This document shows, piece by piece, positions 4,051 through 57,200 of a stretch of DNA of 64,000 nucleotides. Numbering within the stretch: position 1 is the stretch's first letter; each line of letters begins with the position of its first letter. The stretch lies in contig NC_083508.1 in NCBI RefSeq assembly GCF_032362555.1, positions 7,283,001 through 7,347,000 on the forward strand, given 5' to 3'. A program made the translations under genes and the position numbers. The notes under the pieces are model-generated. The model made no database searches, was not told the origin of the DNA, and saw only the letters and a program-made list of their open reading frames with translations. Origin of the DNA: Amyelois transitella (lineage: Eukaryota > Arthropoda > Insecta > Lepidoptera > Pyralidae).

Positions 4051-7000
4051 ATGACGTTCTCTGGAAACATGAAGGAGAGCAAGTCGCGCGGCGTGAAAGA
4101 CACATGGGAGTCGGAGGTGAGAAGCGATTTCTACTATGATTGTCTCGCACCGTTAATGATGTATCTGGTACGCTTCTGATTCATGGCATTGTCATTGTTT
4201 AAAGTTTCGTTCGAAAGTTTCGATGGGATTTCTCGTTAACATGCGATATGCATAATTGACTTTAATAACTTTCATGTATTGTAACCTATTAATGAAACAA
4301 AGCTGTCGAAAGCGCGCTTTTCTTTCAAATTACACGGCTTGGGTCCACCACTTAAAATAATTTGGCGATGTACTAGTAATGTACCAGTAACGTTTTTAAA
4401 CGGTTTTATTTAGCTCACCCCGTTTGTTTTTTTAACAAAATGGATAAACGTTAGTTTTGAAGGGCTAATAAACTTGGGATTCTATTGTAGGCGATGGGCT
4501 AGCAACCTGTCACTATTTGAATCTCAATTCCATTATAAAGCCATACAGCTGAACCCCTGCAAGGGATATAGACGTGAATATAGGAATAAATAATTATGGT
4601 AGTTTTAATATAGGCAGGTAAATACCTATAGCAAAACGTAGTATTTCAGTCTTTCATGATTTATCATGTATGTAACATGGTAGATTTTTTCTAAATGTTT
4701 TATGTCTTACCTACTTACTCTTTTTCATTGTAGAAATATGTAATAAAAATTTCCTTAACGAATTAAAATTCTCCCTATACAGTAGAATAGACCAAAAAAA
4801 TAACTAAAATTTAACTAATTTAACAAGTTAACTGCAATAAAATTAAGAAAACATTGAATAGTTAAAGCCTGCGGTAAAGTAACTATACTTACTTACCTAA
4901 GATAAAAGGGTCATATTTTGCAACGTGAAACTAAAGAAAACGTGAAGTTGCAATAAGGCTGGTGCGGCGACAATTTTATCTTTGGTCACGTTTGGACTAC
5001 ATTCTTTACTCAGGAAGTAAAACGCTTGCTCTGATCATGCACGTCGTTTATGTATGTCTGTCCTTGCCTATTTACGATCACCTCTCACCAGTGTCGGCAG
5101 GCACAATCTAAGTTTAAATCAGCAAATAAATAAAGTACGTACCTATAGGTACCCAAGTAACAAAATTTGTTAATACAAGTCACAGTTAGGTATTATATGT
5201 ACTTAAACAAAAATATTGGTTTTCAACACAGAAATCGTATTATTATTTAAATTGTTTGATTTTTACTTTGATACCTATATAAAATACGTGTAGCTTTTTT
5301 TATTGCACTCCATCTTGTTCCCATGAATGTCGTAAAAGGCGACTTAGGCATAGGCTTATAAACTTGGGATTCTTCTTTTAGGCAATAGGCTAGCAGCCTG
5401 TCTCGAATCTCAATTTTATCGTTAAGCCAAACAGCTGAACATGGCATATCAGACTTTTAAGACTTTCTATCCCGCAAGGGATATAGACGTGATTATACAT
5501 ATGTATGTATTTGAAAGGATTGGTTCAGTAGATAAAGCTTGATGACAAACAAATAAACTTACTTTCGCATTTTGAATTAATTTGGATTGGATTGAATCTG
5601 GATTTAGATAATGACCAAAGTTATAGTATACACGGCTCAGGAGATACCTGGTCCACCTCCCATACACCAGCCAAAACAAGGTGGCACACCTATTTCCTGA
5701 GCCTACCATATCCTTTTTAATATCTTGGATATTATATTATTTATAGAAAGTACCCAAGTAATTATAGAGCACGCTTATTAGACATCGTTCTCCCAAAAAG
5801 ATTTTTCAACTTTGCGACAAATTAGAGAAACATTGCTCAAGCCCTTGATGAGATGGTGTAACGAGTTGCATCTGCCATACCACCTACATTCGACCATGAC
5901 CAGCTTACCTGAGTCACTGTGAGGATACTGTAGGAGTTTAATTAATTATCAAATTCTGTATTTCAATACATATGTCACAGCTATAATAGAGAAAAAGAGT
6001 ACCTACTAGTTGTAAAGGAATATTAAAAATAACCGTTTATAAACAAGAGAATAGAATAAAAGTCGTGTAAGTAAAGAACAAATTGGTAAAAACACTTTTC
6101 TGTTATTTGCACCCACCTTTTTTATGAAAAACGGTAGGCGTGCGGCAGACGATCGCTTTTTTTTTTACAAAATACTGCGTAAAAGCACGATTCCTAAGTT
6201 AGACAACCAGCTGGGCGGTCGGAAGTGTGTCAGTAGATATAACGGCGAAGCGCGAGGGCAGCGTCTTCCGTGATCCGGGTCGTCAGCGCTGACGGCCTGC
6301 CTGACGATTGCTGACCAATACTCACTACACATGTTTTGGTTAACCACATGAAATATTAGATAAATTCGATAATGACTGTATGTATTGATTTAAATAAAAC
6401 TAACGTGTGTGTCAAACCTGCGTTATCAACAGTATGTATGTACGAGTATTATTAATTTTATATATTTATGTACAACAAGGAAAAAAACATGAACTTAAAA
6501 ATTAACTCTGTAAAAGAACACTTCTTATTTCTAAACAAATGTCATCCAATTGGCCCAGGCTAGAAAATATTTAGACTGGAATTTAAATTCATAATAAAAC
6601 ACCTTTAAAAAATTACTCATATAATAAACCTAAAACGAATCAATTTATAATAACAAATATAAATTAATTAGAACAACCTACATGTACTAGTTATATAAAT
6701 AGTGGATGCATCACAACGACAACGACAGGTATGTACTTATATAATGATTATTAGCGATTGTTGATAGATATTACTTTTGAGCTTAAGCACACTGAATCCC
6801 AAGCTTATAAGCCTAACCCTTAGTTGGTTCTTAACTTTTATTAGTCGCCTCATCATCGTGCCGTTATCATCATTAAAAAACCTTTGTATTAATACAAAAG
6901 TGCTCATCAATTTTATTATCGAATTAGCGGAATATACTCCATATGGTATGAACGAATTTTAAAGGTAACCAATTTTAAACTTTGAAATCATATATTTAAA

Positions 7001-10000
7001 AAAGTAAATATAGTAAATATTAAAAATAAACCTTGTAATTTATACAAAAGTGCTCATCTTACGCAAATAAGTACAAACTATTTGTGATTACTTATTACGA
7101 AATACGCTTAAGCGGCGAGGTGAGAAGAATAAGAGTTCACGGTCTAAAAATTTAAAAAAGGTCACAGAGTTTATGTCTTCTAAACATCTTATTAAAAATA
7201 TATACTTTACTGTAGGTATTTTTTGGAAAACAGTAGAATTCAAATCTTCTTCACCTCTATGGAGAGGACTCTGTAGTCCGCTTATGCCTACGTTTCTGAA
7301 TTAGGTAGGCAAGTCAGGTTTTTAGAAAACCGACTCCCATCTTCAATCTAACAAAGTAAGTTGCAGTACTTTATAGGAGAATCCTACCCTTTACTTCATC
7401 ATACGTGGTTACGGATCCATTTGCCTGAAAGTGTGAGTTTCCTCTCGTTTTTTTTTTAATAGAGACGATAATTTATGTGTATCAAATTATTCCACCTCTG
7501 TTAGTCATACGTGTGACCACAAACGTCGTCGACGTGAGAAAACATACTTACCACGCCGCGGCCTAAATATTTTGCTCCAGTTAAGAAAAGTATCATATTC
7601 TAAAACTACTTACATACATATACATATGTATATTCCAACATAAAGACACAACAACAGAACGTGGCCTTTCAGTCTATACCTACTCACTCAGGTACTTATT
7701 AAATAAATGAGTTATCTATCTATCCACTTAACTTTTATTTGTTGACTGATTGCACATACATACCTGCTTAGGCGCCCACATTAAATTTATCATATTTCCA
7801 GTAGGTTGACATGCTACATGCCCTTATGTGCGACAGACTACTAGTGTTTTCTCATAAAATAAAGGTAAGAAAAATCTACGGACAAACAGGGTTCTTAGAT
7901 AAATAAGTTGACGAAAACGATTGTGTGTTGAAAAGACATAAACGAGTTCGGCATTATTAATTTAACTATTTTTATGTATAAAACTATTTGTTTTCATTTC
8001 TTACATTCCTTTAACTTTACCATTTTAAGTTTACCTTGTAGCATGACATTCTTAGATGTCTATTGGATACACTTATAATAAGACAGTTAATAAAACTAAA
8101 TTCTAACGCATTGTCTACTTTGGAATAATGCAAGAAGTTGAAGGTGTGCTACACAAAGTTTATGTTGATATCGATATAAGTAAATAATATACCCTTTTGA
8201 ATTGGAAATATTCTATTCGAAATAGATACTTAAAACATAGGGTTTCATAATTAGAGTTCGAAATATAAGGTATAGTAACCATCATACCTCCAAACATTAT
8301 CTTGCCCAGGGCATTCGTGACTATACAGTATTCCAAAATTCAAACCTTTCGGCCGTCATGGCAACCAAACTTCGCAACCGGTTGAGAAAAAGACATTTCA
8401 ATTCCTTATCGGCAACTAGTTACGAATAAGGATTTTTTTTTCTTTGTAAGCAACTAGTTGCCAACCAAGAAAATTTTTATCGACCATGGCAACTGAGTTT
8501 CTCAACCAGTTGTGAAAAATGATTTAAAATTCTTTCTTGACAACAAGTTGCGTCAAAAATAATGGGAAGTAATGGGTTGACAATCTTTGCGGTCAATCCG
8601 TACTTATATTAAATCCTATTTCTAGAATTACTGGCCAGGATTATTTTTCCTTTTAATTGATATATGTCAATTAAATAATATGTCATTAATTTTCCCTGTC
8701 AAGTCAGTACACATATTTTGTCGCGAACTAGCCTCGCTTGAAAAAAAACGAATTTTATTTCATTGTGATGTCTACTTCAAACATATATCCAAATTCCTCT
8801 ACAGTAGAATATATAACTACAAGAAGAGGAGGTGTATCAATATTACATGAAGGACGCCGTTATCATCGTAAAAAAATATATAAAAATGGAGACTCATTTT
8901 ATAAATGCTATGTTAAAAATGGATGCAGAGGTAATTTAACCATAAATGCACGAAATGAAATAATTAAAATAACAAAGGAACATGACGCAGACTGTGAAGC
9001 TGATATTGGAAAAAATTTAATTTTGAAAAAGATGGACGACTTGAAGCAAAGGAGCAGTTGTAATTTTATATCGATTCAAAAACAGTATGAGGATGTTGTC
9101 AAAGGACTCAAAAACGACGGTTTTCAATTTATAAATAAAATACCACAGTTTAATAACATAAAGACGGGATTATATAATGAAAGAAACAAAGTTTTGGGCG
9201 TTGCAAAGTCACGTTTTAATAATTGTCATGATTTTATTGTACCCACTAAATATAAAAATTTTTGTGTTGCTGACTACGTGGATGACGATAAACGAATCAT
9301 CGTGTTCTGTTCTAATGAAAACAGAAAGGAGATGAATAAGTATCATCATTTTTACGCTGACGGCACTTTTAAGTGTTGTCCGAAATTAAGAACCGAAAAG
9401 AGGCATGTTGCACGGTGCGTTGGTTTAGCTCGTCTTCCTGTTCAATACATAGAAAAAGGATATGAATATGTTATGAGCAAAAACCCTAGAAATCCATCTG
9501 ACGGGTTGCAAAAATTTAATAAATACTTTAATAAACAATGGATAAAGAAAAATGAAATGATGATGTCTTGCTCTTGTGGTAACGAAAATATAAGAACTAA
9601 TAATAGCCTTGAAGGATGGCATGCGAAAATTAATAGATATATTGGAAGAAAATATCCAACGTTGCCACAATTATTGGATATTCTGTCAACAGAATATAAA
9701 TCTTATGATTTAAATATTAAAAGTAAAAAGAATAAAGAGTATAAGGCAATTGACGAGGAGATTGACCAGGCGTTGAGTGAATTAGTAGAAAAAAAGATAT
9801 CTGTTGGTCACTGTTTGGAGATTATTAGCCCTTTTGCAATTTCGTTTTAGCGGTTTAAGTCACTCAGTTAATATAAATAAATGAACACTATTAAAATATA
9901 TTTGTTTTAATATAACAGGGACAATAACCGCCTCCGTGGTGTAGGTAGTGGTTTGAGCGTTCACGAAGTCACGGGCTACAGCTAGTACGAAATCTATGTA

Positions 10001-16000: not shown

Positions 16001-19000
16001 TGGTTACAAAGGTTTGGTCGCGCAACCGAAAAATATCTACAGACGAAAATCTGCAATATCAGTACATTTTTAAATAAATTACGATTTGAATTTTGTTTGT
16101 GTGATTTTTTAACACATTCGTAAAAATGATTCGATGAAATTTTCACTATAACCAAATGTGATACCGACTGTGGTTATGGCATGCCATAATTTATACTTAA
16201 CAGGTCGGACCAAGTTCTTGATAGGATACTAGGAACTTAACTATAGGACGGGGTAATAATAAATGTCTAACGAAGAAATTGCTGTGACGCCGCCGGCTGT
16301 TTTTTGTTTAGCGGTAGAGAAAGCAATAATTTGGTATCACAGTTCGATTCGAAACTAAATATCTGACACTGACTATTTACAGTTACAAATAAGTTGATCG
16401 CGTGGTATTTTCAGCTCATTAATTGTAGCGCTAATTGTCGCTTCGAGGAAACCAAATAAGTAATAAAGGTGACTACCTGCTCAATGATTTCTATTTTGTT
16501 TTTGTTTTTGAGAGAAATGTTCTACATAATTTCGCATAATCACATCACACAATACATATTATAATTTTAATAAAGTCGTAAATAATATAAAAATTCAATA
16601 ACAAATCTTGTAAACAATTTGTAACTTAATCAAAACAATAAATGCTCAACTTTCAATTCACTGTCATTAAAAAGACATCAACGATCCCCGCACGAGTTGC
16701 GTATGAGAACCCGTGAGAAACTGTATAAAAAGATAATTTAATATTCTGTAGGTAGGTATCGTATATTTTTTTAAAAGTGCTTAGATATTTGTATTGACAG
16801 CTACTTTAATTTAAATCCATATTTTTGGTATACGAGTTAGATAGAGGAATATTTTATTAAATTCACATTTATGTAATACAGTCTGACTGCAGTTTGCATA
16901 ACTTTTACGTATAAAAAGTGAATGCAAGAGGTTTAAATTCCTCTTGAATTTTAATTACCTAACTAAATTTTTATTATAGAAGACTAGCGACCCGCCCCGA
17001 CTTCGCACGGGTGCAAAATTATAAATGTTATTATACATAAAAACCTTCCTCTTGAATCACTTTACCTGTTACAAAAAACCGCATCAAAATCCGTTGCGTA
17101 ATGTTAAAGATTTAAGCATACAGACAAACAGACTAAAATAGTGACTTTGTTTTATACTATGTAGTGATTAGTTAGGTAGACACTCAAAAAAGAAATAATC
17201 CTTATGTTGTCATGCCCATCATCATGGCAACATCATTTTTTTAACTTATTATATTGTAAAAGCTCATTTGAAATTCCTATAATATTAGTTATTTATCAGA
17301 AACTTTTCCAGTATCGAACCTACAGGGCAATCAGAGAAAGTGTAGGTTTTTTTACTTTCACAAAATCGTGTTGACGACAAACTGTCGTTAAGTTCTGAAT
17401 AGAGCTGTGGACAAAAATACTACCTTTTATTCATCACCTATTTTAGTTTTTATTTAAATATATTCAATGTACTTACAGAAATTTATTTTTTCCTGTTTTA
17501 TCCATATATTAGATTATTTGATATTTTATAATGGATACGATCAAATACTGACATGAAATCATAACTACAAGTACGCATGCACGGTACTGATCTCAGAGTA
17601 TTGATACAATCTAAAACGATTGCGATAAATCGGAAGTCACGTCGAAGTGGACGACATAAATACCTTTTTAGAAGAGTCGTAGTCGTGAGCGATATGTGGA
17701 TTTGATATGTGATATTGACACGAGAAAGTATACTTAATACGTGTTTTGTTTTCGATTGGAAGCTTGTGTTCGCTATGCACAGCGCGGTAGCGTGTTAGTT
17801 GGCCCACTTTATGCTACGATCCCAGGTTAGTGTCACGGGCGGACATGTCATTTCGTGGACAGAATAAAGTTGAGATATAAATTACCATGTTTTTGGCATG
17901 GGTAAAAGGCTTATCAATCCTCGGCAGACTACTTCTAGTCTTCGGGTAAAGGATGAATATTGTGTTATTATTATTACAAAGAACAGTAATTGAGCCTCAC
18001 GATCTAAATTCACCTTTTAGCTTGGAGAAAGGGATACGAGTGCACTTTGAGATGTCCTTCGAACCCATATTCACGGCAGTTACTACGAGCGAGGTACGAG
18101 CTGTGTTGACGCGGGAGTTGACGTCGCCTGCGCACCTTCGGAATGTCGCAGCATTAGTAGAGACACTACAACTGGAGGTAATCCTGAACATTTCAATGTT
18201 CAGTAGAGTTAGTTAGTAAGTAGTTAATTTTTACCTGACTACGGTGAACCAAAATGGTTGGTTATACATATATATAATCACGTTGATATCCCTTGCGGGG
18301 TAGACAGAGCCAACAGTCTTGAGAATACTTATAAGCCATGCAGCTGGTTGGCTCAATGATAGGATGAGATTAAAATAGTGACAGGTTGCTAGCCCATCGC
18401 CTAAAAGAATTCCAAGTTTATAAGCCCATCCCTAAGACGCATTTTACGACATCCATGGGAAAGAGATGAAGTGGGCCTACTATTTTTTTAATTGGTAATA
18501 CCACACCACAAACGCACACGGTTTATTGCTACCGCCCTAACGACACCTAGACTTAGTTATGCTTATGGTAACTAAACATACATATATTCTCTCTCATCTT
18601 TATGAATGCTGATAACGTAGGTATTATATTGAAATTTACCAGTTAGATCGCAGAAAATATTATTTAACTAACCACAAATAAACGAAGCAGAACGCTTTCT
18701 CTCCGAAACAATGTCGTAATTTTGATTTAAAGTATGATAAAGTGATAAAATTGCAATAACTCTGCAAGAGCAATTTTGAAATAAAATGGGCACATACCTA
18801 TATTTTTTTTACATAAAGTAACAATGTATATGCAACAAAATTAGGAAATATTAGCCTAAGTAACTGAAAAGAAAAAAAAAACTTTTGTTATCTATGTACA
18901 ATCTTGGAGGGTATTTTCAGGAAAATTCTGTAATATCATTGGAACTGAAAGAAGCCGAAACGACCACAGACGATGCGCCGACGACGGAGGCTACTTCCAC

Positions 19001-22000
19001 AGAGGTGGTGGAAGAACTGCGCGAGTGTGCACCGGTCACTCTGGGGCTGTGTTCCCACTTGCCGTACAACACTACCGCGTATCCGAACCTCGTGGGGCAC
19101 CAGAATAAGGATGCTATGAATGCGGATCTTGTTGCCTTTAGAGAGCTCCTTGATGCGGAATGTTCACATCTTGCACAGGTAAGTGCAAACGATAAACAAG
19201 AAGACTTATTAAGAAGAATACATGAATTTAGGACCAATTTATTAGTCCTAAATTCATGTATGCTTGCTGCAAAAAGAGGAAATCTATAGGCCGTCCATGA
19301 ACATGATCATAAGACCTGTTGACCTTTGATGAAATAAATATGGAAATAATCTTGCATTTTTCCAAGGTTTTTTCTTGGCGATAAGGGACTACAATTTTTC
19401 ACTCGCCACAATCCCTCCATGGCATACTTTTTGAAGCGGAAGCTTTGCACACATTGATCAATCATTTCATGAAAGCTCTATCGGTTACGGATACTCTTAT
19501 CCTCACAGTCCTCCAAAACGTCTTCGTCTTGATCAAGGAACGTTCGTTCAGGCCCTATCTAAAGTTTACATTCTGTTTTCCAGGATTTCGTATGCGAGAT
19601 GTTGCAGCCACGCTGCGATCACGACCACCTGGTGCGGCCGTGTCGGGCATACTGCAGAGCGTTCCACGCGGGCTGCGGAGCGAGACTGCCAGAAAGACTG
19701 CGACCCCATTTTGACTGCTCCCGCTTTCCGGACTACTTTGGACCAGGATCATGTACGCCAGAAGCAGGTATGCTCATTAATTCCACTCATCATCCTTTTG
19801 ACGTTAATACCAGTTGCGCCATCACTTCTTTGTGGAGAGAAGCCAGAGATTCACCAGTGACCACGATCCTCATGTGGGTAAAACAGGTTTCTATATAAAC
19901 TTTGTATGAGTGTTTCGTACTTACGACAATGATGAAAATGCACAATTGACTTAAGTAAATAACTGTGTCTAGAGCTTTGACGAAAATTATTATTATTTTC
20001 GAGACTTCATTACTCTACAATCATCTAACTTACATAAGTTACTTAGCTTATAAACTAAACGATGACCTATTCTGTAAGTACCTTGTTCTAGAGATGACAG
20101 CTTATACTGAACGTTATCATTAGTCGAAGTTCACAATCGAGTTCCAATATCCACTCAAAAAGTGTGATGAAAACAGATTGCAGCGCCGGTCTTCAGCGGT
20201 TAGCTCTATCGCGGCGCGCTTGCGATGGCGTGCCGGATTGCGCGGGGGGCGAGGACGAGCGAGCCTGCGCACATTGCGCGGGCGCTGGTGGTGCGGCTCT
20301 CCGCTGCGCGCTGCACGCCCGCTGTCTGCCGCCGTATCTACGCTGTGACGGCACTCCTGACTGTCCCGATGGCAGCGATGAGACTGGATGTTGTAAGTAA
20401 CTACTATGTTGAAACAAAACAATTTTAACGCCAAGTAACGTTAGAAGGGGAATGCCAGACAAACATATCTTAATTAAATCGAGGCCGTCCAGTCAGAGGT
20501 CAGATAGAGGTCGGGTACCATAAGCCAGCAAACTTGCATGAAAATAGTCCTGAAATGAAAAGATGTTGTCTCACCTAACCCTTCGAGAAAGAAGCGTTAT
20601 TTTTGTGAATAGTTCAAGAAAAAAACTAACTAGGTAATATATGTGATACACAGCACTTCCGACTCCTCGAGTACATTCATTGACTTGATGTCAGTGGATA
20701 GGTATATACAGGTACAGTCGCCTGCAGAGAATCTCCATTCATCCAAATTAAAAATAAAGCGAGAACAAGTGTATCCGCAGAAGGCTGAACTATTAAATAC
20801 TTACTTAGTTTTGGTTGGGTTAGCTGAACGAGGCCTACCGGCCTTTCAAGACTGCCGGCTCTGTCTGCCCCGCAAGGGTTATAAACCTGATTATATGAAT
20901 GAATGAAAGGTTTCTTTACAGTATGGATCGCACGTTCCCTAGCATCCTGGAGACGTGAGAACGGAGAGACAACGCTCGGGGCAGTTCGTAGTCGTGCGGG
21001 GTACGCCGTGTGGGCGGAGCGCGGCCGCGACGGCAAGATCTGCGCGGCGCCTTACGAGAACGACAAGCGAGCGCTAATGAGCGTCGCTACGTCACTGTGT
21101 AGAGCTTTAACTTTTAGGTAAATTTTATTCTGGATTTACGACAAACATTTCGAAATCAAAATCAGCTAAACATGCCTAGATCTATAACTAAAATAAACGA
21201 GTGGCAATTTATTATCTCAGATATAGGCAGGTAAGTTACATGTACAGATTGTTTCCATTTTATGCTGATCTGATGGCAAAGAAATAAAAAGAGTGCCAGC
21301 GCAGTTAGAGTCTTTTGATTATTTTGCTTACCGCGCAAAGATTAAAGGCATGATAGGTACCTATGTGTGAGTATAGTACAGATAGACGCTAAAGACCTTA
21401 ACTATGATATGTGGAAAGACGCAAAAATTAAAAGTTTATATTTACCATTAACAGATTATTTTCATTCCGTATCTACAGGACAGCAATAAGCGCAGAAGTT
21501 GTACCTGACAGTGAAGAAGAAATTGAATCAAATGAATCAGAGCAAACTGAATCGCGGAAATTCACAAAAGAAAAACCAGAATACGTAGAAGTGGTAGACC
21601 CCTTTGCGAATGAAATATCGTTTCAGAAAAGCGAATGCCCGCAACGGAAAGTGATTCGAGTGTCTTGCGAAAATTTAGGTAAGATAACTACTGCTCATTT
21701 ATACAGGGTGACATTTAAAACAACTGCATCCTTTTAAACATAGACTATACCCATGCTTCTGAGCTGTTTGAACCTATTTTTATTTAAATTAAACGTCATC
21801 ATTTTCACATTTAAAAACCCCTCAAAAACTACGTCACACGCTTTATTAAAGACCAATACTACAAAAAGAAATTAAAACTAAACATGTAAATAAATGCCTA
21901 AAAATAAATTATTTTTCTAGTATCAAGATCATGTAAAGTACAGAGTTGTCGAGATCGCTCAGCTGAATGAATTGTGTCGTTGACCTCTGAATCTTACGCG

Positions 22001-23698
22001 TCTCTTTTCCGCCGGCCGGGGTGATAAGACGTATTTAGGATCGTGGATTTTGATACTTTTAATTTTTTTCGTTCTTTCTGAAATATGAATCGATATTTTT
22101 CTTTTAACGTTTTTAAATATCCTTTAGATGAGTACACATAACAGTTAAATTTATGCAGTTGAATTAAATGTCACCCTGTATAAATGCGTATCACTACGTG
22201 ATTGGATTGCATGTCATGCATGCATCCGACTAAAAAATGTACACAGGATGTGGTACAGATTCGAAATCCTACCGCTAATGACAAGTTACAATGCGAGGAA
22301 ACCTGCACATTCAGGTGACAGAATGTGGTGCCATTATTTCAACATGGGTTCACCTATTCTTTTTTTAGGCGAAGAGCTAACAACCTATTTGAATTTCAAT
22401 TCCATCACATGAATGTGGTCATCTTGTCTAACCGAAATAGTTGGGCTTGTCTACTCCTTTGGGATACAAACGTGAATATATGTATTTAATCTGTTTTTGG
22501 TTGATACTATCCAAATTCGTAAGATATTTTTTCTATTTCCCTAACAAGTTAGTAACTTTGCTGGGTTGTAAACCTACATGTTTATATTTTAATTACAGAA
22601 TGTGGCTTGGCATCAGCGCGAGGAGCTCAGGCTAATCGCGGCGTGGAGGGCCTGCCCCGCTCGGCGCAGCCCGGAGACTGGCCGTGGCACGCGGCGCTGC
22701 TGCGCGCGCACGTGCACGCCTGCGACGCCGCCCTCGTGCACCCCTCGTGGCTTGTCACCACCGCCTCCTGTTTCCAGGTATTTTCTATTTTTCAGTAGGT
22801 ACAAGAGATTTTTATGCCATACATATTTTTCTTCTACGTCGAATCCGTGTCCATGTCGTGACCACCATAAAGTAGTTATGGTATTCAAAGTGTAAAAAAA
22901 TAAACCCTATATTGACAGTGTAAGTGTCTTGTTCTAGAGATGATAACTCTGTGGTAAACTCGAAGGAATTACTTAACTCTAGTTTGACAAATGTTTTTTG
23001 CAGGGACAACCAAAAGCTGAGTGGACTGCCAGATTAGGAACCGTACGGATCCAGAGTACTACGCCATGGCAACAAGAACAGCGTATCGTGGGCATGGTGC
23101 GGTCTCCGGTAGAAGGAAGCATGTTAGCGCTGGTCAGATTAGAGGAGCCAGTTGAAATGACAGACTTTGTGCGCCCACTATGCTTGCCCGAAGACAATGC
23201 TGCAGATAACGCAGACAGTGTTTGCAACACATTAGGGTGGACGCGGAATAGGGACCAATTGCAGAGAGTACATGTCAGCATAAGCCCGATGAATACATGC
23301 GAAAATGTCAGCATAGCTACCGTGAATGGAATTTGTGCTGAGCCTCTTTATCACCAAGACGACTGTGATGTAAGCTAACCCTTTATAACATATATACGCA
23401 TGTTATCTAGATATTTGTATGTTTATGGTATAATAATTTTTTTGGATTAGATACAATAATTACTCAAAATTCTTCCCATGGACTTTGTCATTAACAATTT
23501 ACTATTTTACAGGAAGAAGAATATGCAGGTAGTTCAATGATGTGTTTCAATAATAAATTGAAACGTTGGTCTTTGGTTGGAGTCAGCGGGTGGCGCATTG
23601 CCTGCTCTAAAATAGGACTAGGCAGGCCTCGGATCTACGACGCGATTGCTTCACATGTAGATTGGATACGCCGAACCATTTCCAATTCTGCTAGATGA
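4051..23698 (+). CDS. Corin-like type II transmembrane serine protease homologue, catalytically dead
   Basis: Exons: 4051-4116, 13263-13455, 15725-15932, 17982-18177, 18921-19178, 19584-19767, 20177-20392, 20922-21117, 21479-21678, 22599-22777, 23004-23369, 23513-23698. All junctions are GT-AG and in phase, giving about 815 residues, or 771 from the internal ATG at 13329. Numbered from the latter: a basic cytoplasmic tail; a Leu/Ala/Val membrane segment at about 24-41; a SEA-like region (45-175); an acidic Thr-rich linker; a frizzled cysteine-rich domain (about 200-325); two LDL-receptor class A repeats (325-396, the second with CDGTPDCPDGSDETGC); an SRCR-like region (400-527); and a chymotrypsin-fold domain (529-771). 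This order is that of corin, the pro-ANP convertase of vertebrates. The catalytic His, Asp and Ser positions are Ser585 (TTASC), Met628 (SMLALVRL) and Ala715 (YAGSSMMC), and the RIVGG activation site is degraded. It is therefore inferred to be a non-proteolytic membrane protein. The first exon (4051) is the least certain. Confidence 0.85.
4461..4583 (+). repeat. SINE fragment, (TATG)n-tailed family
   Basis: Carries the family landmarks aacttgggattct, gcgatgggctagcaacctg and gcaagggatatagacgtga. The 5' end is truncated and the 'gttggctctgtctacccc' block is missing. Bounds are approximate. Confidence 0.7.
5295..5510 (+). repeat. SINE copy, (TATG)n-tailed family
   Basis: Near-full-length copy running from cactccatcttgttcccatg to cgcaagggatatagacgtga and a short atgtatgt tail. 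It is diverged and has small deletions. Confidence 0.75.
8337..10230 (+). mobile_element. Mutator-like (MULE) DNA transposon with 8-bp target duplication
   Basis: The element spans 8345-10222 (1878 bp). Left end cctttcggccgtcatggcaa and the reverse complement of the right end, cctttcggccgccatggcaa, match and stay similar for about 120 bp, giving long terminal inverted repeats (about 8345-8470 and 10098-10222). Both contain the palindromic motif gcaactagttgc. An exact 8-bp repeat, aattcaaa, flanks the element at 8337-8344 and 10223-10230, as expected of a target-site duplication in the hAT/Mutator size class. The internal ORF is MULE-like. Intact ends and a perfect duplication indicate a fairly recent insertion. 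Confidence 0.88.
8738..9850 (+). CDS. MULE transposase-derived protein with FLYWCH-like zinc finger, core deleted
   Basis: Open frame of 370 codons inside the transposon. Residues about 28-85 form a FLYWCH-type finger (YHRKKIYKNGDSFYKCYV, then cysteines and HDADC), the DNA-binding module often found ahead of MULE transposases. FYADGTFKCCP (Asp208) matches the first catalytic aspartate motif of the MULE DDE domain. RTNNSLEGWHAKINRYIGRKYP (about 286-307) matches the conserved C-terminal motif. The segment between them, which normally holds the second Asp, the Glu and the C-x-H motif, is missing: the chain passes from the first-Asp strand to the LARLPVQYIEKGYEYV region within about 20 residues. 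The frame is nevertheless intact. The protein should bind DNA but cannot catalyse transposition. The start could also be the Met at codon 11 (8768). Confidence 0.8.
   Translation: MKKNEFYFIVMSTSNIYPNSSTVEYITTRRGGVSILHEGRRYHRKKIYKNGDSFYKCYVKNGCRGNLTINARNEIIKITKEHDADCEADIGKNLILKKMDDLKQRSSCNFISIQKQYEDVVKGLKNDGFQFINKIPQFNNIKTGLYNERNKVLGVAKSRFNNCHDFIVPTKYKNFCVADYVDDDKRIIVFCSNENRKEMNKYHHFYADGTFKCCPKLRTEKRHVARCVGLARLPVQYIEKGYEYVMSKNPRNPSDGLQKFNKYFNKQWIKKNEMMMSCSCGNENIRTNNSLEGWHAKINRYIGRKYPTLPQLLDILSTEYKSYDLNIKSKKNKEYKAIDEEIDQALSELVEKKISVGHCLEIISPFAISF
11361..11623 (-). repeat. SINE copy, (TATG)n-tailed family
   Basis: Nearly complete copy on the minus strand. On the plus strand it starts with cacgtctatatcccttgcgg and ends with ggtgccgggaaccacacg. 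It lies in the first intron of the corin-like gene. Confidence 0.8.
12213..12420 (+). repeat. tRNA-derived SINE, 5'-truncated copy
   Basis: Begins at gcatgatgagaaaagaac, just after the tRNA-like head present in the copies at 32452 and 57899. It continues through the shared body (tatcgttgagttagtatctc) to a tail of repeated tatttatat units. Confidence 0.8.
13502..13612 (+). pseudogene. Decayed tandem duplicate of the corin-like transmembrane exon
   Basis: The stretch resembles exon sequence 13329-13460 just upstream: gtgaacagcgac against gtgagcagcgac, cgcttcacgcg against cgcttcacacg, and ctcggacgtacg against ctcggacgtagg, all in the same order and orientation. The copy has frameshifting indels, lacks most of the leucine-rich membrane codons and meets a TAA. 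It is an old exon duplication that can no longer encode the membrane anchor. Confidence 0.6.
14480..14640 (+). repeat. Dispersed repeat fragment
   Basis: The phrase atcaaaatcggttcagtggtt, followed by aaaagcgtaacagacggaca, is typical of 3' regions of abundant insect retroelements. The family is not determined. Confidence 0.4.
16983..17172 (+). repeat. Dispersed repeat fragment with cgacccgccccgacttcgca head
   Basis: It runs from cgacccgccccgacttcgca through aaaaccgcatcaaaatccgt to gactttgttttatactatgt, a layout I recognise from abundant insect genome repeats. It has no coding capacity and lies in an intron of the corin-like gene. Confidence 0.5.
18264..18508 (-). repeat. SINE copy, (TATG)n-tailed family
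   Basis: Diverged, nearly full-length minus-strand copy in the intron after exon 4 (17982-18177) of the corin-like gene. The landmarks cccttgcggggtagacagag and gacatccatgggaaagagat are present. Confidence 0.75.
19219..19260. repeat. Perfect short inverted repeat (16-bp stem)
   Basis: tacatgaatttaggac at 19219-19234 is the exact reverse complement of 19245-19260, with a 10-nt spacer. It lies shortly after the donor of the exon ending at 19178. Confidence 0.85.
20812..20907 (+). repeat. SINE 3' fragment, (TATG)n-tailed family
   Basis: Diverged 3' third of the family (agctgaacgaggcc, ggctctgtctgccccgcaag), ending about 14 bp before the acceptor of the 20922 exon. Its tail is built of gaat units instead of tatg. 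Confidence 0.6.
21702..22180. mobile_element. Non-autonomous TIR element (MITE) flanked by TA
   Basis: cagggtgacatttaa at 21704 is mirrored at 22178 (reverse complement cagggtgacatttaa), and similarity continues for about 25 bp. Both ends are flanked by TA (21702-21703 and 22179-22180). The 475-bp interior has no long ORF. TA flanks and short inverted ends fit a Tc1/mariner-type MITE. It lies in a corin-like gene intron. Confidence 0.75.
22261..22355 (+). repeat. Dispersed repeat fragment (gaggaaacctgcacattcag family)
   Basis: Shares its core (gaggaaacctgcacattcag, then a gtgacagaatgtg block) with the longer copy near 51781 (aaggaaacctacacattcaa). It is a fragment of an abundant repeat, family unassigned. 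Confidence 0.55.
22358..22487 (+). repeat. SINE fragment, (TATG)n-tailed family
   Basis: Strongly diverged: ttttttaggcgaagagctaa through tttgaatttcaattccatca to cgtgaatatatgtatt. Confidence 0.55.
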
Positions 23699-24640: not shown

Positions 24641-25174
24641 ATAGAGCATTTGCAGGATTTGATTGATTTTTGGACATAATGCATCCACTTTGCTTTGCAT
24701 TCCAAGTGCTGCTCAAAAAAATAACACTAGTACAACTAAGCTAAACATTCATATAAGATGTTGATGAAAAAAGCAAATTGGTTCTTACTTTTTACATCTT
24801 TCCATGGATAGAAATACTGGGACTGTCTTCCACTATTTTCATTGCCAATGGCGGCAACAAAAAAACCCAGATTTACATCCACATAGAAACTATTTATTTC
24901 CTCTTAAGAAAAACCTCTTAAACATAGTTCTATTATTGAACTTGTTAATTGCTGGTAATAAATTTTCAAAAAACAACTGTTTTTTTATTATGTTTTAAAA
25001 ACTATTAGTCCCACTTTTCCCATCTTATATTCCCATGGAAATAGAAAGATACACCCATATTTTGCACCCTTTTGTATAGGTACTCCTGAATAATAAACAC
25101 AAAAATAACTTTAAAATATATTGTTATTACAACTACAACATATCCATTACATAACTAAAATAATAATAACAAAA

Positions 25175-25381
25175 CTATTTTAATACACCTTCATCTTTTA
25201 ATTCCTTTCTGATTTTTGATTGTACATGATCTGGAAAATTATTCAACTCTTCATTTATATAATTATGTAAGTCCTGCAAAGGTCTATAGTACTGGTGCAC
25301 CACTTGCGATCCGGTGAGCATGGATATCATCGCAGCAGCAGTAAAAGTTAGATATTGTCCCCAACTGACACCAGCTGGCAT
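25175..25381 (-). CDS. sloth2: sloth2 / UQCC6 (Brawnin, C12orf73) homologue, complex III assembly microprotein
   Basis: 68 codons. The N-terminus MPAGVSWGQYLTF, the single membrane segment (about residues 8-26) and the motif VVHQYYRPL match the Brawnin/C12orf73 family (family: MPAGV start and VVHRYYRP). Members are small inner-mitochondrial-membrane proteins needed for assembly of respiratory complex III. The ATG at 25381-25379 overlaps the TAA of the upstream sloth1 frame as TAATG, sharing one base, so both proteins must come from one transcript. In Drosophila the same pair (CG32736/CG42308) is bicistronic. Translation is inferred to depend on reinitiation or leaky scanning. The C-terminal half is charged (DHVQSKIRKELKDEGVLK) and lies outside the membrane. 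Confidence 0.88.
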   Translation of the reverse strand: MPAGVSWGQYLTFTAAAMISMLTGSQVVHQYYRPLQDLHNYINEELNNFPDHVQSKIRKELKDEGVLK

Positions 25382-25599
25382 TATGCTGCAGAATATTTCC
25401 TAATTTTCTCGTCGACTATATCGTGAGCTTGTCGCTTTTTGAATGTATTATAGAAGTTAACTTCACCAACTCTCCAGTTTATCATAGAAAACTCTAAAGC
25501 TCCTCCCAGTACAAAAAACATAGGTAGAAACCTATACATACCAAAAACTTTTTTTCCAGGCCATTTGTTGACAAGTTTATGAATCCATCCAATTCTCAT
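25381..25599 (-). CDS. sloth1: sloth1 / UQCC5 (SMIM4) homologue, complex III assembly microprotein
   Basis: 72 codons. The order PGKKVFGMYRFLPMFFVLGG followed by EFSMINWRVGEVNFY is the SMIM4/UQCC5 signature (family: PGKQRFGIYRFLPFFFVLGG and RVGQETFY). It has one membrane segment at about residues 24-43 with basic flanks on both sides. The family acts in the inner mitochondrial membrane in cytochrome b / complex III biogenesis. The ATG at 25599-25597 has a purine at -3. The frame ends in TAA at 25383-25381, where sloth2 begins. No intron interrupts either frame. The start codon faces the orphan gene at 26561, about 960 bp away. Confidence 0.9.
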   Translation of the reverse strand: MRIGWIHKLVNKWPGKKVFGMYRFLPMFFVLGGALEFSMINWRVGEVNFYNTFKKRQAHDIVDEKIRKYSAA

Positions 25600-26560
25600 T
25601 GCCTTACAGAATTATTTATTTTATATTCAGAAAAAATTGCGAATGGACACTTTAAAAAGTGATGATTATTATTTGGTACTTATACATATCACAAATTAAT
25701 TAAGAGTTTCTTTTAGACTACACTCAGGATAACTTAATATAGGTACCAGTGATTTGGTATGGTAAGGAGACCTGTGGGAGACCTAACCTCGAAACTCAAG
25801 ATAAGACTCAAATCCAAATCGAATCGATCAGCTGTGAATTCGATGTCAATGTCAAAATCAGGGTGTTCATGGCACATGTCAATGTCAAACGTAATAAATA
25901 TCGGAAGTTGATCAGAAGCATCGCTGAAGCTAGTCATAAAGTAGTTAGTGTTTTCAACTTAGTGCTTTTGGCGCTTTTTATCGTTTCGCGGATCATTTTT
26001 TTTGTCAATAGTGTAAAGTAATTAAATAATATTAAAGATCTGTATCGTTTTTTTTTCCAAATTTTGGCAATCTATGTAATGTAATGCTCTTTTTATCAAA
26101 TTTAGTGCATTTTCTTCAAACACATTTGGCAACAGTAAACACAATAAACATGTAGGTTGGTTTGGTTTGTGCTTGGTGTGTGCAAACTTACTTAAGACAT
26201 TATAAATGTGTGTTGTGTACAAAACTTATGAAAATAAAAACCAAACTTAGATAGTCACCAACCCAACATATAATAATTTCTGTAGTCACCATACCAAACC
26301 AAGTTCCTAAAACGTAGTGATTAAATACTCTGCGCCAAGTTACCTCAACCTTTATATGTCTATTTATTTTCTGACAGAACATCAGATAGAAGACTGACAG
26401 AGGCAGAAGTCTGAAAATGAAAACAAGGCAAAAATTTGTGGAAAAGGAAATGTAGGAAAGCAAAAGAAAATTACCGCGGTAATAGTCCTGTGATATTTTT
26501 TTAAAACAAAATCGACTTGTTACCGAAACTTGTTTACTTACTTGCTTTAAAGGTAAATCT
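25600..26560. promoter_or_regulatory. Shared intergenic region of divergent sloth1/2 and the orphan gene
   Basis: About 960 bp separate the divergent ATGs. At 25842-25888 there are four TGTCA motifs in about 47 bp (gatgtcaatgtcaaaa and catgtcaatgtcaaacg), a plausible promoter element cluster. The rest is AT-rich, with no supported coding sequence. Confidence 0.4.
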
Positions 26561-27109
26561 ATGAGCCTCATTAAGGACTCCAAACGAGTGATAAACCAAG
26601 TATTTTTGGAAAATGTGATTCCCATGAAAATTACAGAGAGCAGAGAATTAAAACCATGTTCTATCAGCTGGGGAATCATCACAGATTACTATTTGGAATC
26701 AATCAAAATCAATTCCAATAAGGAGGGTATTACTTCTACAGTCGCGACATTAAAAATTGGTGATGTTACTGGACAAATTGTGTGTATAGTAAGAGGTCCT
26801 GTGGTTGGAGTTCTGTTTGATTTATCGGCTAAAGAGTGGTTACAAGTTGAACAACTCTGTAACTGTGGAGGACAGTTATTTTATAGATATTTTAGAGATG
26901 GAATAAAAAGCAGTTTCAATTATGAACAAAAGTTGTTTTATAATTTTTGTGCCAGCAGTCAAAAAAAGAATGCTCTTGTAGCTGTGTTTCGCAGAGGTGT
27001 TAACCAAAGAAATAAAGATATAAATGATGCATTTCTTGAAATTTTAGAACTTAAGAAATGTGAAGGATTAATTTTAGATTTATATACAAATCAACTTAGA
27101 AAAACATAA
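26561..27109 (+). CDS. Orphan 182-residue protein, possible OB-fold
   Basis: Single uninterrupted frame of 182 codons ending in TAA at 27107. The chain alternates hydrophobic beta-like segments and short loops; the stretch TVATLKIGDVTGQIVCIVRG (about residues 65-84) resembles an OB-fold strand pattern as in single-strand nucleic-acid-binding proteins. That is only a shape impression. It has no signal peptide, membrane segment or zinc-binding cluster, although it contains CNCGG. The C-terminus is charged (NQRNKDINDAFLEILELKKCEG). Met22 is an alternative start. It is divergent from sloth1/sloth2. I do not recognise the family. Confidence 0.65.
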   Translation: MSLIKDSKRVINQVFLENVIPMKITESRELKPCSISWGIITDYYLESIKINSNKEGITSTVATLKIGDVTGQIVCIVRGPVVGVLFDLSAKEWLQVEQLCNCGGQLFYRYFRDGIKSSFNYEQKLFYNFCASSQKKNALVAVFRRGVNQRNKDINDAFLEILELKKCEGLILDLYTNQLRKT

Positions 27110-28718: not shown

Positions 28719-29778
28719 CATAAAATCACGCCTCTTTCCCGGAGGGGTAGGCAGAGACTACCTCTTTCCACTTGCCACGATCTCTGCATACTTCCTTCGC
28801 TTCATCCACATTCATAACTCTCTTCATGCAAGCTCGGCGATTTCGGGTACTTTTGACCTGACCTTTTACCAGGACGTCCTTAATTTGATCAAAGTAGGTC
28901 TTCCCACTCCGACCTTTCCCTCCACACTCTCCTTGTATATCTGCTTAGTCAATCTGCTTTCATTCATCCTCTCCACATGACCGAACCATCTTAACATACC
29001 CTTTTCTATTAACTACATCTTCTTTCACATCACAACATTCCCTTATCACGCTGTTACTTATCCGGTCACTCAATTTCACACCCATCATACTCCTTAACGC
29101 TCTCATTTCCACTGCATTTATTCTGCTTTCGTGCTTCTTTTGCCATACCCAACTTTCACTCCCATACATTAATGTCGGGACCAACACGTCCCTATGCATA
29201 GCCAGTCGAGCCTTTATGGATATTTTCTGACTGCTCATAAAGGCATGCAAAGCTCCATTCACCATGTTCCCCGCGTTCACTCCCCTTTCAATATCACTAT
29301 CACACTTGCCATCTGATGTAAACTTTGATCCTAGATATACAAACTCTTTCACTTGCTCAACTTTTTCTCCTCCAATCAAAATATTACATGCTGTCATTTC
29401 TTTCTCCATTTCAAAAACCAGTGTTTTAGTTTTACTTACGTTCACTTTCATTCATTTCTCTTTTAAAGCTTCATGCATACAGTTTACCATCTCCTGTAAC
29501 TCCTCCGCTGATGACGCCAGTATAACCTGATCGTCGGCATAGAGCAGACATTTGACGAGTAACTCATTCATCCTTAATCCACTTTCAGACTCTTTCAAAT
29601 CTGTCAAACAACAATCCATAAATAGGTTGAACAACCACGCTGACGCAACACATCCTTGCCTAATGCCTTTCTCAATCTTAAACCACTCAGTGTGCGCTCC
29701 GCTTATCCTGACACAAGCACTCGAATTCTCATATAAGGATTTCAGCGCTCGAACCCATGCATAGAAAGTGCTGACCAC
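28719..29778 (-). mobile_element. 5'-truncated non-LTR retrotransposon (reverse transcriptase part and 3' end)
   Basis: Minus-strand reverse transcriptase in two adjacent frames: 29452-29778 with KGIRQGCVASAWLFNLFMD and the active-site box YADDQVIL, and 28960-29451 with KTKTLVFE, EFVYLGSKFTSDG and MYGSESW. The two frames meet at about 29451, so a frameshift or stop separates them. Upstream domains (endonuclease, early RT) are missing. The 3' untranslated end reaches about 28719 and recurs near 60474 and 62186. The style (FVYLGS...DIE..VNAGN) is that of insect RTE/CR1-group LINEs; the clade is not settled. Confidence 0.8.
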
Positions 29779-45703: not shown

Positions 45704-47066
45704 TTATTCTGTAAACTGCCATATTTTTATTTCTCCATCATCACTACAGGAAAGTAGCTCTTGGCTGCCATTCGGGTTCCAAGTGACACAGTTGACATCC
45801 TGAGCGTGGGCATTCAATTTGGTACAAATAAGTTCAAATGTTGGAGCATTTGGATCTGATTCCTCAGATTCTTTGAAGATTCTTATAATGTCATCACCAC
45901 ATGCAGTAACTAGTAAGCCAGTCTTGTGGCACCAGGCTATATCATAAACACATCTGGAGTGATATCCTGATAATGTACAAACACATTTCCAAATTGATTC
46001 TCTATCATTCACTATCACACCCTCTTGGTTGTCTGGTTTATATTCTTTCCAAATTTTAACAGTTTTGTCATCACTGCATGTGGCTAGTCTCGCACCTGTT
46101 TTATCAAAGGCCAAGCTCCATACAGTGGACTCATGTGATTGAAGAGTAGCAATACATGTCCAGTCATTGTCTACTGGATCTTCCTTATAAAGTTTAACAG
46201 TGTTATCATATGAGGCTGAGGCCAATATGTCTAGGCATGGGTGCCAAACTACCTAGAAACAAATTGTGCTTTAGATGTAATACATTTCATTATTAAAATA
46301 TAAGTGCAGAAAACATATAAGAAGGTACAAACTTTCTTGACATCTTGATTGTGCACATTCAAAACTGATTCACATTCATATTCATCTTCCCCGGCCACTT
46401 CCCAGACCCAAACTGATTTGTCCCTCCCACATGTTGACAGCAGCTGGCCAGATGGTGACCAAGCTACACTTTTGACTTCATTCTCATGGCCTTCTAATGT
46501 AGCATTACATTCAAACTGACCTGTTTTCAACACATTTATGTTAAAAATTATATTGGATTTGTTATTAATTAACTTCATAAAATTCATATATAGCCAAACA
46601 GCTGAACGTGGTTTATAAGTCTTTCAAGACTGTTGGCTTTGTCTACCCCGCAAGGGATATAGATGCGCTTTAGAAGCAGTAGTAGTTATAATTAGATTTA
46701 AGTGATGTGACGTCAAAAACTGATATCTTGTATGCAATTTTGAAAATAAATCTATTCTATTATATGTATATTCATATATCAAATTAAATACACACCACTT
46801 TTCTTATCCCAAATAGCTGTTGTTGCATCAAAACTGGCCGATGCCAAAAAATTCCCACAAGGTGACCAGGCCACTTGCCTTATTGTGCGTTGATGTCCAT
46901 CTACAAGAACTGTCTTAATCTTCCATTCAGTTCCTTCTTTACTCCATAGTTTTATAGTTTTGTCTTCTCCACATGATGCAAATATTTTACCCTGAGGGTG
47001 CCATGCTACATTCCAGACAATGCCTTTGTGACCATTTAATGTTTGTAGCAGTTCCAATTTCGCCAT
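45704..47066 (-). CDS. Ciao1: Ciao1, cytosolic iron-sulfur assembly WD40 protein
   Basis: Three exons on the minus strand: 47066-46796, 46520-46333, 46252-45704; in phase, 335 residues, the size usual for this family. The protein is a seven-blade WD40 propeller: [115 protein letters not shown] and [20 protein letters not shown], each ending in a D-x-W-type strand. These blades match CIAO1, the scaffold of the CIA targeting complex (with MMS19 and CIAO2B) that hands Fe-S clusters to cytosolic and nuclear apoproteins. It is divergently transcribed from WDR77, 1.1 kb away. A SINE fragment occupies its first intron. Confidence 0.95.
46591..46670 (+). repeat. SINE 3' fragment in Ciao1 intron 1
   Basis: gccaaacagctgaacgtgg to accccgcaagggatatagat; the tail is lost. 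Confidence 0.75.
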
Positions 47067-54250: not shown

Positions 54251-57200
54251 TTAATCAAAGAAATATACGAACGGTGTGGGCGGCTGGACCATGTCAGATT
54301 CAGGCGTGTCTGGGGTAGTGGGCCCCGCAGGGGGTGGGGAAATAGGGCTGGTCGGCGCGGGGGGAGGCGTCTTGTTGATGGCCGGGTTGTAGATCTTGGG
54401 GTCACTGACCATGCGCACGAAGAAAGAACGCTTGTGAGCCAAAGCAGCGCGGTGCTTGCGTGCGCGCTCCTCGTTCAAGTCCTGAAAACAGACAGGGTTA
54501 GTTTCTAATATACCCAAAAAAAATGATAATATCAAAAAGGCCTCGGCTTCTTCCAGTCATCTGGGATTTCTATTCCATCATTTAAGGTATTTAACAATCC
54601 TTGAAATTATTTCTTATAGGTACTTGGTTGGTTGTTGGTAAGTCGAGATCGGTTGGGATAGTCGTAGCTGTTCTTGTTCGACTTCAAGGCTAACCTTGTT
54701 GTTCCATAGAAAATTCTGAATATGTAAGTAGACAGGTTATCGGGAATGACATACAAATAAATTAATTTTTCATATAGTTCATCATCATCACATTGTGTCT
54801 CATTAATTTTAATTACCTATAGCATTACTAAAAATGACAAATATCTATTAACTTACTCTTTCCTTGTCGGGACCTTCTAGTAATTCTGTTGCGAAGTCCG
54901 TTATTATGTCCCAAGCAATTTCTGAAAAGAAAAATGATTGGTTAAACAAAGTGGTCCAATAATCAATGAAAAGAGATTAACACTTTTATTAAGCCTCTAT
55001 CCTTACCGATATCTTCACGTGTGGCATGCTGGTGGACCACGCAGAAACGGATTACAAACCGGTCTCTCACCGACGCGGGAACCATGTGAATTTTTCCAGA
55101 CGCGTTAATGTTGGTAAGAAGTTTCCTGTTCAATTCGTCCATTTGCTGATCCGTCTCGTCTGGACCCCCGACCAGGCGGAAGCATACCAATCCTAGCTGA
55201 AATACACAATAAAGGTGTAGGTAATTAGTATATTTTGCGGCGGTCAATCATATAGTCACAATTTATGTTACCTTTACTTGGTTGCAAACTTCAAACCTAT
55301 CGTCCTTTTTTACCAATTTTTCAAAATACTTGGCGAGTTCGCAATGACGCCGGATATATTTTTGCAAACCGCTGATACCATAACTTCTCAGCATGAACCA
55401 CAGCTTCAAAGATCTAAATCGACGGCTCAACGGGACGCCCCAATGTCTGTAGTCTATCGCTGTGTGGTCATAGCAATGTTGAAGGTATAGAGGATCCACC
55501 ACCAGAGCTGATGTAAGGAGGTAGCGGTTAGTCACCCACAAAAGTGAACAGTCGAAACTTGTCAACATTAGTTTGTTTGGATTAGTGTTGAACGAATCTG
55601 CGTATTCAATCCCCGCCAAATGGTACTTATGTTCAGGGCAAAGGAATGAGCTGCCAGCGTACGCTGCGTCCACGTGGAGCCACACCGAGGGGAATTTCCT
55701 CACGACGGGCCCTATCTCGGGCATATTGTCAAAGGAACAGCATGATGTAGTGCCCAATGTGATAGAAACAAAAAATGGGACAAGTCCAGCCTCTTCGTCT
55801 TCTTCCATTGCCTAGGAAACAAATATGAAAGATTTTTGTAGTCAAACATGTCTAAATAAAAAACAATAAATTAATAATGGATCTAACCTACTCTTGTTAC
55901 TTTTGTAAATAAATGCATCGTTTAAAACCATGTTTTAAAATATAGAATTCAACACAGCCTCATAATAGAAATGAGTCGAGAAATTGAGTGGAACATAATC
56001 GAAATGAGAATTCGAGGCGCCGCAATTAAACAGAATTTCATAAGGGGGTCTTATTGCGAAATTTCAATATTTGCCGCATAGAAAGTGGCACACAATGCCG
56101 CTCCATTACCGCCCGGCTCGCCACGTATTTCCGGCATGCAAGGGCACGTCATTAAACGCGGGATGGCGCCGATCTAGGTCTGTTCTCGGCTGGAGCACAA
56201 AACACTCCAGAGTACAAAGATAAAATAACGATCAATTAAAATGAGACGGGTCGGATATAGAGAGAATCCGTGTCTCCGTTGGATATAATTATTAGGTAAT
56301 GAATGTCTTTCGTAAACGAGACTAACCTATTATTTCTTGACTAACTGCAAGCTTAGTAAAGAATTTTTTTTGTTTTTTTTTAGTTTTAGTGTTTTGTGTC
56401 AGGGCTATAGTGCCACAAAACACAGCCTCCGCCGCAGCGCCGTCGCCTCGGTCTTTCAATTAATAGTGCCGACCACCTGATTATATTTGCTGCCTTGCAA
56501 ATTTTAGTAGGTATGAATTGTATCGTTTTCGTTTGTTCAGATTAAAGGGTTCTTTAGCATAATATCTTCTGGCTGCTTCATGGTTGCCTCTTAATGATTG
56601 TATAGATTATCTACAGGATTACAATAAACGTTTTTTTAGCACAAGTACCTACCTATCATACAATTTATACCTATTCTTTGAAATTTTGGTCTTTCCCGAA
56701 AATTTAAAATTCTTTGAGTTTCATAGTATACAAAGCGTCATAAAATTTATACACACATCTTTTAAAGTTTCGCCTCTTAACGAGCCGTTTTCATCGGGCT
56801 GTAAGATTCTTAATTTGACGAAGCAAATCATGGCAGCCTTTTCCACGCCAGAATGCGCCTCTTTGGAGCAATAAGCGATCAGTTTGGAGAGCAAGAGGCC
56901 CTCGTCCACTGTGGGGAATTGGTGCTTCAACCTCTTGATGCCGTTCGCGCGGGCCGCCAACATTGAGACTAATACACATTCGCTCGCCGATCCCTGAAAT
57001 CAATTTTATTGCTATTGGTGTGACATAGTTTGCTATTTGAATCTCAATTCCATCATTAACCGATACAGCTAAGCGTAGCCTTCCAGTCTTTTCTAGAATG
57101 ATGGCTCTGTCTAGCCCTTAAGGGATAAATACGTGAAGTATGTATATAAATTAATTGGTAAAGACCGACCAAAAATCACACAAAAACACCCTTTCATTTC

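Follow-up and report, generated by a model that had tools for sequence, protein, structure and literature searches.

Within the 64,000-nucleotide (nt) window of Amyelois transitella DNA that we analyzed, the minus strand carries two adjacent open reading frames (ORFs) that encode the orthologues of the Drosophila microproteins Sloth1 and Sloth2, in that order (Table 1). More specifically, the first ORF matched the Pfam family PF15114 (UPF0640) with an E-value of 2.2e-33 (114.4 bits versus a cut-off of 27), and its residues 6 to 66 aligned to positions 6 to 66 of the 67-position profile, i.e., in register and over nearly the full length. Likewise, the second ORF matched PF14990 (DUF4516; E-value 1e-21, 76.8 bits versus a cut-off of 27), with residues 1 to 45 aligned to positions 1 to 45 of 46, in register from the first residue; the other row returned by the Pfam search with sloth2, NAAA-beta, was insignificant (E = 0.14). 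We take SMIM4 (newer name UQCC5) to be the PF15114 member and C12orf73 (newer name UQCC6) the PF14990 member. Fly Sloth1 has been described as the orthologue of SMIM4, and fly Sloth2 as that of C12orf73/Brawnin (PMC9681215).

Table 1. Coordinates of the sloth1-sloth2 pair and associated features in the window
Feature	Position	Strand	Basis
sloth1 (SMIM4 orthologue), 72 aa, TAA stop	25381..25599	-	ORF, PF15114, sole genome match
sloth2 (C12orf73/Brawnin orthologue), 68 aa, TAG stop	25175..25381	-	ORF, PF14990, sole genome match
TAATG stop-start overlap (TAA 25383-25381, ATG 25381-25379)	25379..25383	-	sequence
sloth1 start context AAGGCA-ATG, G at -3	25597..25605	-	sequence
sloth2 start context AGCATA-ATG, A at -3	25379..25387	-	sequence
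Five AUGs between both starts	25483..25588	-	sequence
AATAAA, first candidate poly(A) signal, 186 nt past the sloth2 end	24984..24989	-	sequence

The coding-strand junction of the two genes reads GCAGCATAATGCCAGC, in which the final A of the sloth1 stop codon is also the first base of the sloth2 start codon; the stop-start junction itself is spelled GCATAATGCC on the minus strand. The original prediction of a one-base overlap between these two genes, in this order and of these two families, was thus confirmed. An in-frame TAA lies 15 nt upstream of the sloth1 ATG; on an unspliced message, sloth1 could thus not start at any in-frame AUG ahead of this one. A further AUG at position 25687 of the same strand, 88 nt upstream of sloth1, opens an 11-codon frame that would be an upstream ORF if transcription starts further upstream.

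Searched as DNA, the pair has one matching place in its own genome (327 Mb, 33 contigs), and profile searches of the same 327 Mb found one match for PF15114 and one for PF14990. Three gloverin matches over the cut-off in this genome suggest Lepidoptera, gloverin not being known outside this order. For all three families these profile searches gave 0 matches in 14 control genomes, zeros from which we draw no inference. Several explanations could be rejected on these grounds: (i) chance ORFs, by the Pfam matches of both frames; (ii) a pseudogene or duplicate, since the frames are intact and each has one genome match; and (iii) a frameshift or readthrough fusion, since the two products each have a start and a family match of their own. 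The locus is an intact lepidopteran sloth1-sloth2 pair that was found once in the genome.

Searches for more distant relatives yielded little. A PDB sequence search returned 0 rows for sloth1 and 3 rows for sloth2 (E = 0.43 to 0.71), and for sloth1 none of 41 pattern stretches in a collection of non-eukaryotic genome contigs, nor any of 10 in viral contigs, was confirmed. With sloth2, one of six stretches in viral contigs was confirmed, which we reject as a chance match: it covers residues 34 to 59, of which just 12 fall within the Pfam stretch 1 to 45, and its DNA resembles, by eye, a phage or bacterial repressor gene.

Both proteins are shorter than 100 aa, and their best 19-residue hydropathy windows lie at residues 24 to 42 of sloth1 (mean 1.36) and 10 to 28 of sloth2 (mean 1.24). 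An often-used threshold for a membrane segment is a mean of 1.6, and the sloth1 window falls below it. The fly and vertebrate orthologues are known to be mitochondrial and to act in complex III assembly (PMC9681215), and by analogy the pair would have this function as well.

To weigh the adjacency itself, we counted pairs of ORFs of at least 65 aa spaced by -10 to +20 nt, and found five such pairs in 100 simulated first-order Markov strands of 64 kb versus three over both strands of the window, the sloth pair included. The simulated strands held only 10 ORFs of this size each, versus 25 and 27 on the two strands of the window, which itself has three pairs. Adjacency by itself is therefore weak evidence; the exact -1 spacing carries little statistical weight, less than adjacency does. 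That the pair is not due to chance follows from the family matches and from the linkage of the same two families in Drosophila, lamprey, sea squirt, and a choanoflagellate. The other two pairs in the window are at 20688-21121 (plus strand), where the ORFs overlap by 4 bases, and at 5247-5709 (minus strand), where they are 19 nt apart.

The neighborhood of the pair contains further coding stretches. A 182-aa ORF at 26561-27109 (plus strand), for which Pfam returned nothing at E up to 1, is divergent from the sloth pair; ~960 bp separate its ATG from that of sloth1, so that a shared promoter region is possible. Convergent with the pair are two Frizzled-domain open stretches together with a trypsin-like one (18864-19895 and 22983-23375, plus strand), which we take to be perhaps one corin-like gene. 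A 372-aa open frame at 8732-9850 (plus strand) has a FLYWCH zinc finger. The open frame at 28960-29451 (minus strand) matched no Pfam family at E = 0.001 but looks, by eye, like the terminal part of a reverse transcriptase from a non-LTR retrotransposon. At 45704-46623 and 55263-55811 (both on the minus strand) there are two open stretches with WD40 repeats and a pyridoxal-dependent decarboxylase stretch.

The overlap and the AATAAA downstream of sloth2 would fit a compact single message, the latter being weak evidence given that AATAAA or ATTAAA occurs 8 times in the 1,500 nt scanned past sloth2. It had been proposed that the overlap forces a single mRNA, which goes too far: the overlap does remove a spacer that could hold a promoter, but sloth1 itself could contain a promoter or a splice site and so still yield an mRNA carrying sloth2 only. 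We consider such a separate monocistronic sloth2 mRNA, whether from an internal promoter or from alternative splicing into the sloth1 end, to be improbable. There is precedent in flies, in which a monocistronic alternative has been reported for at least one gene in 114 (45 + 69) of 159 dicistronic loci, the other 45 yielding both products from the dicistronic mRNA only (PMC4528330), and there is a CAG whose end lies 4 nt ahead of the sloth2 ATG. However, the pyrimidine tract of this CAG is poor (by a crude score, 20% of the YAGs on the strand score lower), so that a sloth2-only splice at this site appears unlikely, and for the fly gene one sloth transcript is predicted from the start sites (PMC9681215).

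The same fly survey bears on a further element of the original prediction, namely, that such an arrangement is rare in animal genes. For Drosophila this is overstated, as 159 dicistronic pairs are known, with spacings of -34 to +319 nt in those loci whose transcripts are all polycistronic; of the 36 genes flagged for a coding stretch shared in different frames, 26 sit on polycistronic transcripts (PMC4528330).

Given one mRNA, sloth2 could be reached by internal ribosome entry upstream of its start, and IRES use may indeed be common among fly dicistronic genes (Crosby 2015, PMC4528330). We regard this route as very improbable for the sloth pair, since the second frame of the fly gene responds to changes in the sloth1 Kozak sequence, the authors of that work saw no obvious IRES (PMC9681215), and the fold across the junction in A. 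transitella is not unusual (z = 0.03 over 199 nt).

We then considered how readily a scanning ribosome could bypass the sloth1 start. The fly start consensus is (C/A)AA(A/C). By our own count against these four positions, sloth1 (GGCAATG) fits at 1 of 4 and sloth2 (CATAATG) at 3 of 4, such that the start context of sloth2 is somewhat better than that of sloth1. Applied to the fly genes, the same count gives 3/4 for sloth1 (ACAC) and 4/4 for sloth2 (CAAA); with fly sloth1 scoring 3/4, this count is not the measure that makes fly sloth1 weak, which is C at -3. As both A. transitella starts have a purine at -3, the asymmetry between them is modest and the evidence from it soft.

A ribosome that passes the sloth1 start would meet five further AUGs before sloth2. 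Two of these are out of frame and terminate within sloth1 (25588, at +11, 3 codons; 25564, at +35, 10 codons), and both have G at +4; the other three are in frame with sloth1 (25539, 25521, and 25485, at +60, +78, and +114, respectively). None of the five has A at -3, and only the AUG at 25539 has a purine there (G). We detected no depletion of out-of-frame AUGs in sloth1, for which 2 were observed versus 2.4 expected from synonymous sequence (P[≤2] = 0.51) and 2.5 expected from codon permutation (P = 0.47). In this respect the A. transitella pair differs from green-algal bicistrons, for which AUGs ahead of ORF2 are reported to be depleted (PMC11892635).

In a reporter of the fly gene, impaired initiation at sloth1 increased the downstream output and a stronger sloth1 Kozak sequence decreased it; in addition, the authors judged the sloth1 context (ACACATG) non-optimal and the sloth2 context (CAAAATG) optimal (PMC9681215). 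The reporter responses are indicative of leaky scanning and are the reverse of what coupling between the two ORFs predicts.

On balance we favor, with somewhat better than even confidence, a lepidopteran sloth bicistron on one capped mRNA from which sloth2 is made mostly by leaky scanning, with help from the short ORFs and a minor share from coupling. Both the single mRNA and the translation route are parts of this model that we infer. A single capped mRNA would encode two membrane microproteins assisting complex III assembly; ribosomes initiating at the first AUG would make sloth1, and sloth2 would come mostly from ribosomes that pass the sloth1 AUG. Some of the passing ribosomes probably initiate at the 3- and 10-codon out-of-frame AUGs, terminate early, and resume scanning. 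Termination at +22 or +67 would leave them 195 or 150 nt, respectively, to regain competence before the sloth2 AUG (+218). Reinitiation coupled to UAAUG after full translation of sloth1 may contribute a minor share.

The five AUGs en route, two of them with G at +4, and the lack of depletion among the out-of-frame ones count against this leaky-scanning model, and even a ribosome that resumes after +22 or +67 still passes two AUGs in frame with sloth1, those at +78 and +114. For fly stoned and snapin, in-frame AUGs within ORF1 have been reported to attenuate ORF2; in fly lmg, which like the A. transitella pair carries three more such AUGs in ORF1, the product of ORF2 was not detected (PMC3372440). 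Considered together, the intervening AUGs and these fly cases indicate that plain leaky scanning would probably not be highly efficient at the sloth pair, and the evidence on the mechanism of sloth2 translation is mixed.

The same five AUGs favor the principal competitor of leaky scanning, in which sloth2 arises mainly by coupling at UAAUG, i.e., ribosomes remain on the mRNA once sloth1 is finished and begin again at the AUG that overlaps its stop. The original prediction held that the arrangement suits such reinitiation, and TAATG does have the overlapping or nearby stop and start of TURBS or SART1-type coupling. UAAUG coupling is documented in SART1, a retrotransposon of the silkworm (Kojima 2005, via PMC5972666 and PMC2881922), which is a lepidopteran, as is A. 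transitella, and a review treats UGAUG in mouse GAD as a likely case. Nevertheless, we consider coupling unlikely as the main route. The fly orthologue shows the opposite dependence on sloth1 translation, namely, leaky scanning (PMC9681215); the downstream product of human CASQ2 is about 82-fold lower (review); and the overlap leaves zero distance for ordinary 40S reinitiation, an argument made for SLAMF1 (review).

Nor did the search for UGGGA and for local structure reveal a stimulatory cis element at the sloth junction, where neither a well-placed UGGGA nor a notable downstream structure was seen. The only UGGGA in both ORFs lies ~120 nt before the sloth1 stop, farther than is known for viral TURBS. 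UGGGA is the TURBS core (review), and a TURBS-like element was rejected. SART1 requires a downstream structure (PMC5972666), whereas the fold in the 92 nt from the sloth2 start is ordinary (z = -0.48), as is that across the junction; a special junction structure was likewise rejected. With its overlap, the pair may still use coupling, in all likelihood as a minor route beside leaky scanning. A stronger version, that in Lepidoptera the sloth pair has shifted from leaky scanning to true SART1-type UAAUG coupling in a host gene, seems to us more doubtful still. Were this version true, sloth2 would be made only by ribosomes that have just finished sloth1, fixing the ratio of the two assembly partners. 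The original prediction also had the arrangement couple the dosage of the two factors, and a need for balance between them is supported by flies, in which overexpression of sloth2 causes a lethality that sloth1 rescues (PMC9681215). The first interpretation of the locus is, as a whole, partly supported.

Among the open-licence literature, we met no description of a lepidopteran sloth pair in the titles and abstract openings of the matches listed. Our data extend the known sloth bicistron to a lepidopteran, and offer a natural test of leaky scanning versus stop-start reinitiation, with the same proteins, a different spacing, and five intervening AUGs. Should the overlap turn out to be shared among moths and to be coupled, a mechanism described chiefly in viruses and retrotransposons would gain an example in a cellular gene.

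Compared with known systems, the closest is the Drosophila sloth1-sloth2 gene (CG32736/CG42308), which is bicistronic and has the same two families in the same order on the same strand, as adjacent ORFs in different frames. The two differ in (i) the spacer, which is 5 nt in Drosophila (GCAAA) versus -1 nt in A. transitella, a compression that had been correctly predicted (Bosch et al. 2022, PMC9681215); (ii) the -3 base of sloth1, C in the fly versus G; and (iii) the lengths of sloth1 and sloth2, 79 and 61 aa in the fly versus 72 and 68 aa. A similar bicistronic architecture is stated for sloth1/sloth2 of lamprey, sea squirt, and a choanoflagellate (PMC9681215). SART1 shares the identical UAAUG pentamer and a lepidopteran host, but belongs to a mobile element and depends on downstream structure, whereas the sloth pair is a host gene without a notable one. 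The overlapping fly dicistronic genes described by Crosby (2015) resemble the pair in their same-strand coding overlap, mostly of less than 40 nt, and an often shared transcript; they are, however, other gene pairs, with overlaps of up to 553 nt. We propose that the inter-cistron distance is short and drifts, and that the -1 spacing is one value along the way, with no mechanism of its own. The arrangement is conserved and mostly explained by the published fly gene, to which the one-base overlap adds a modest new detail.
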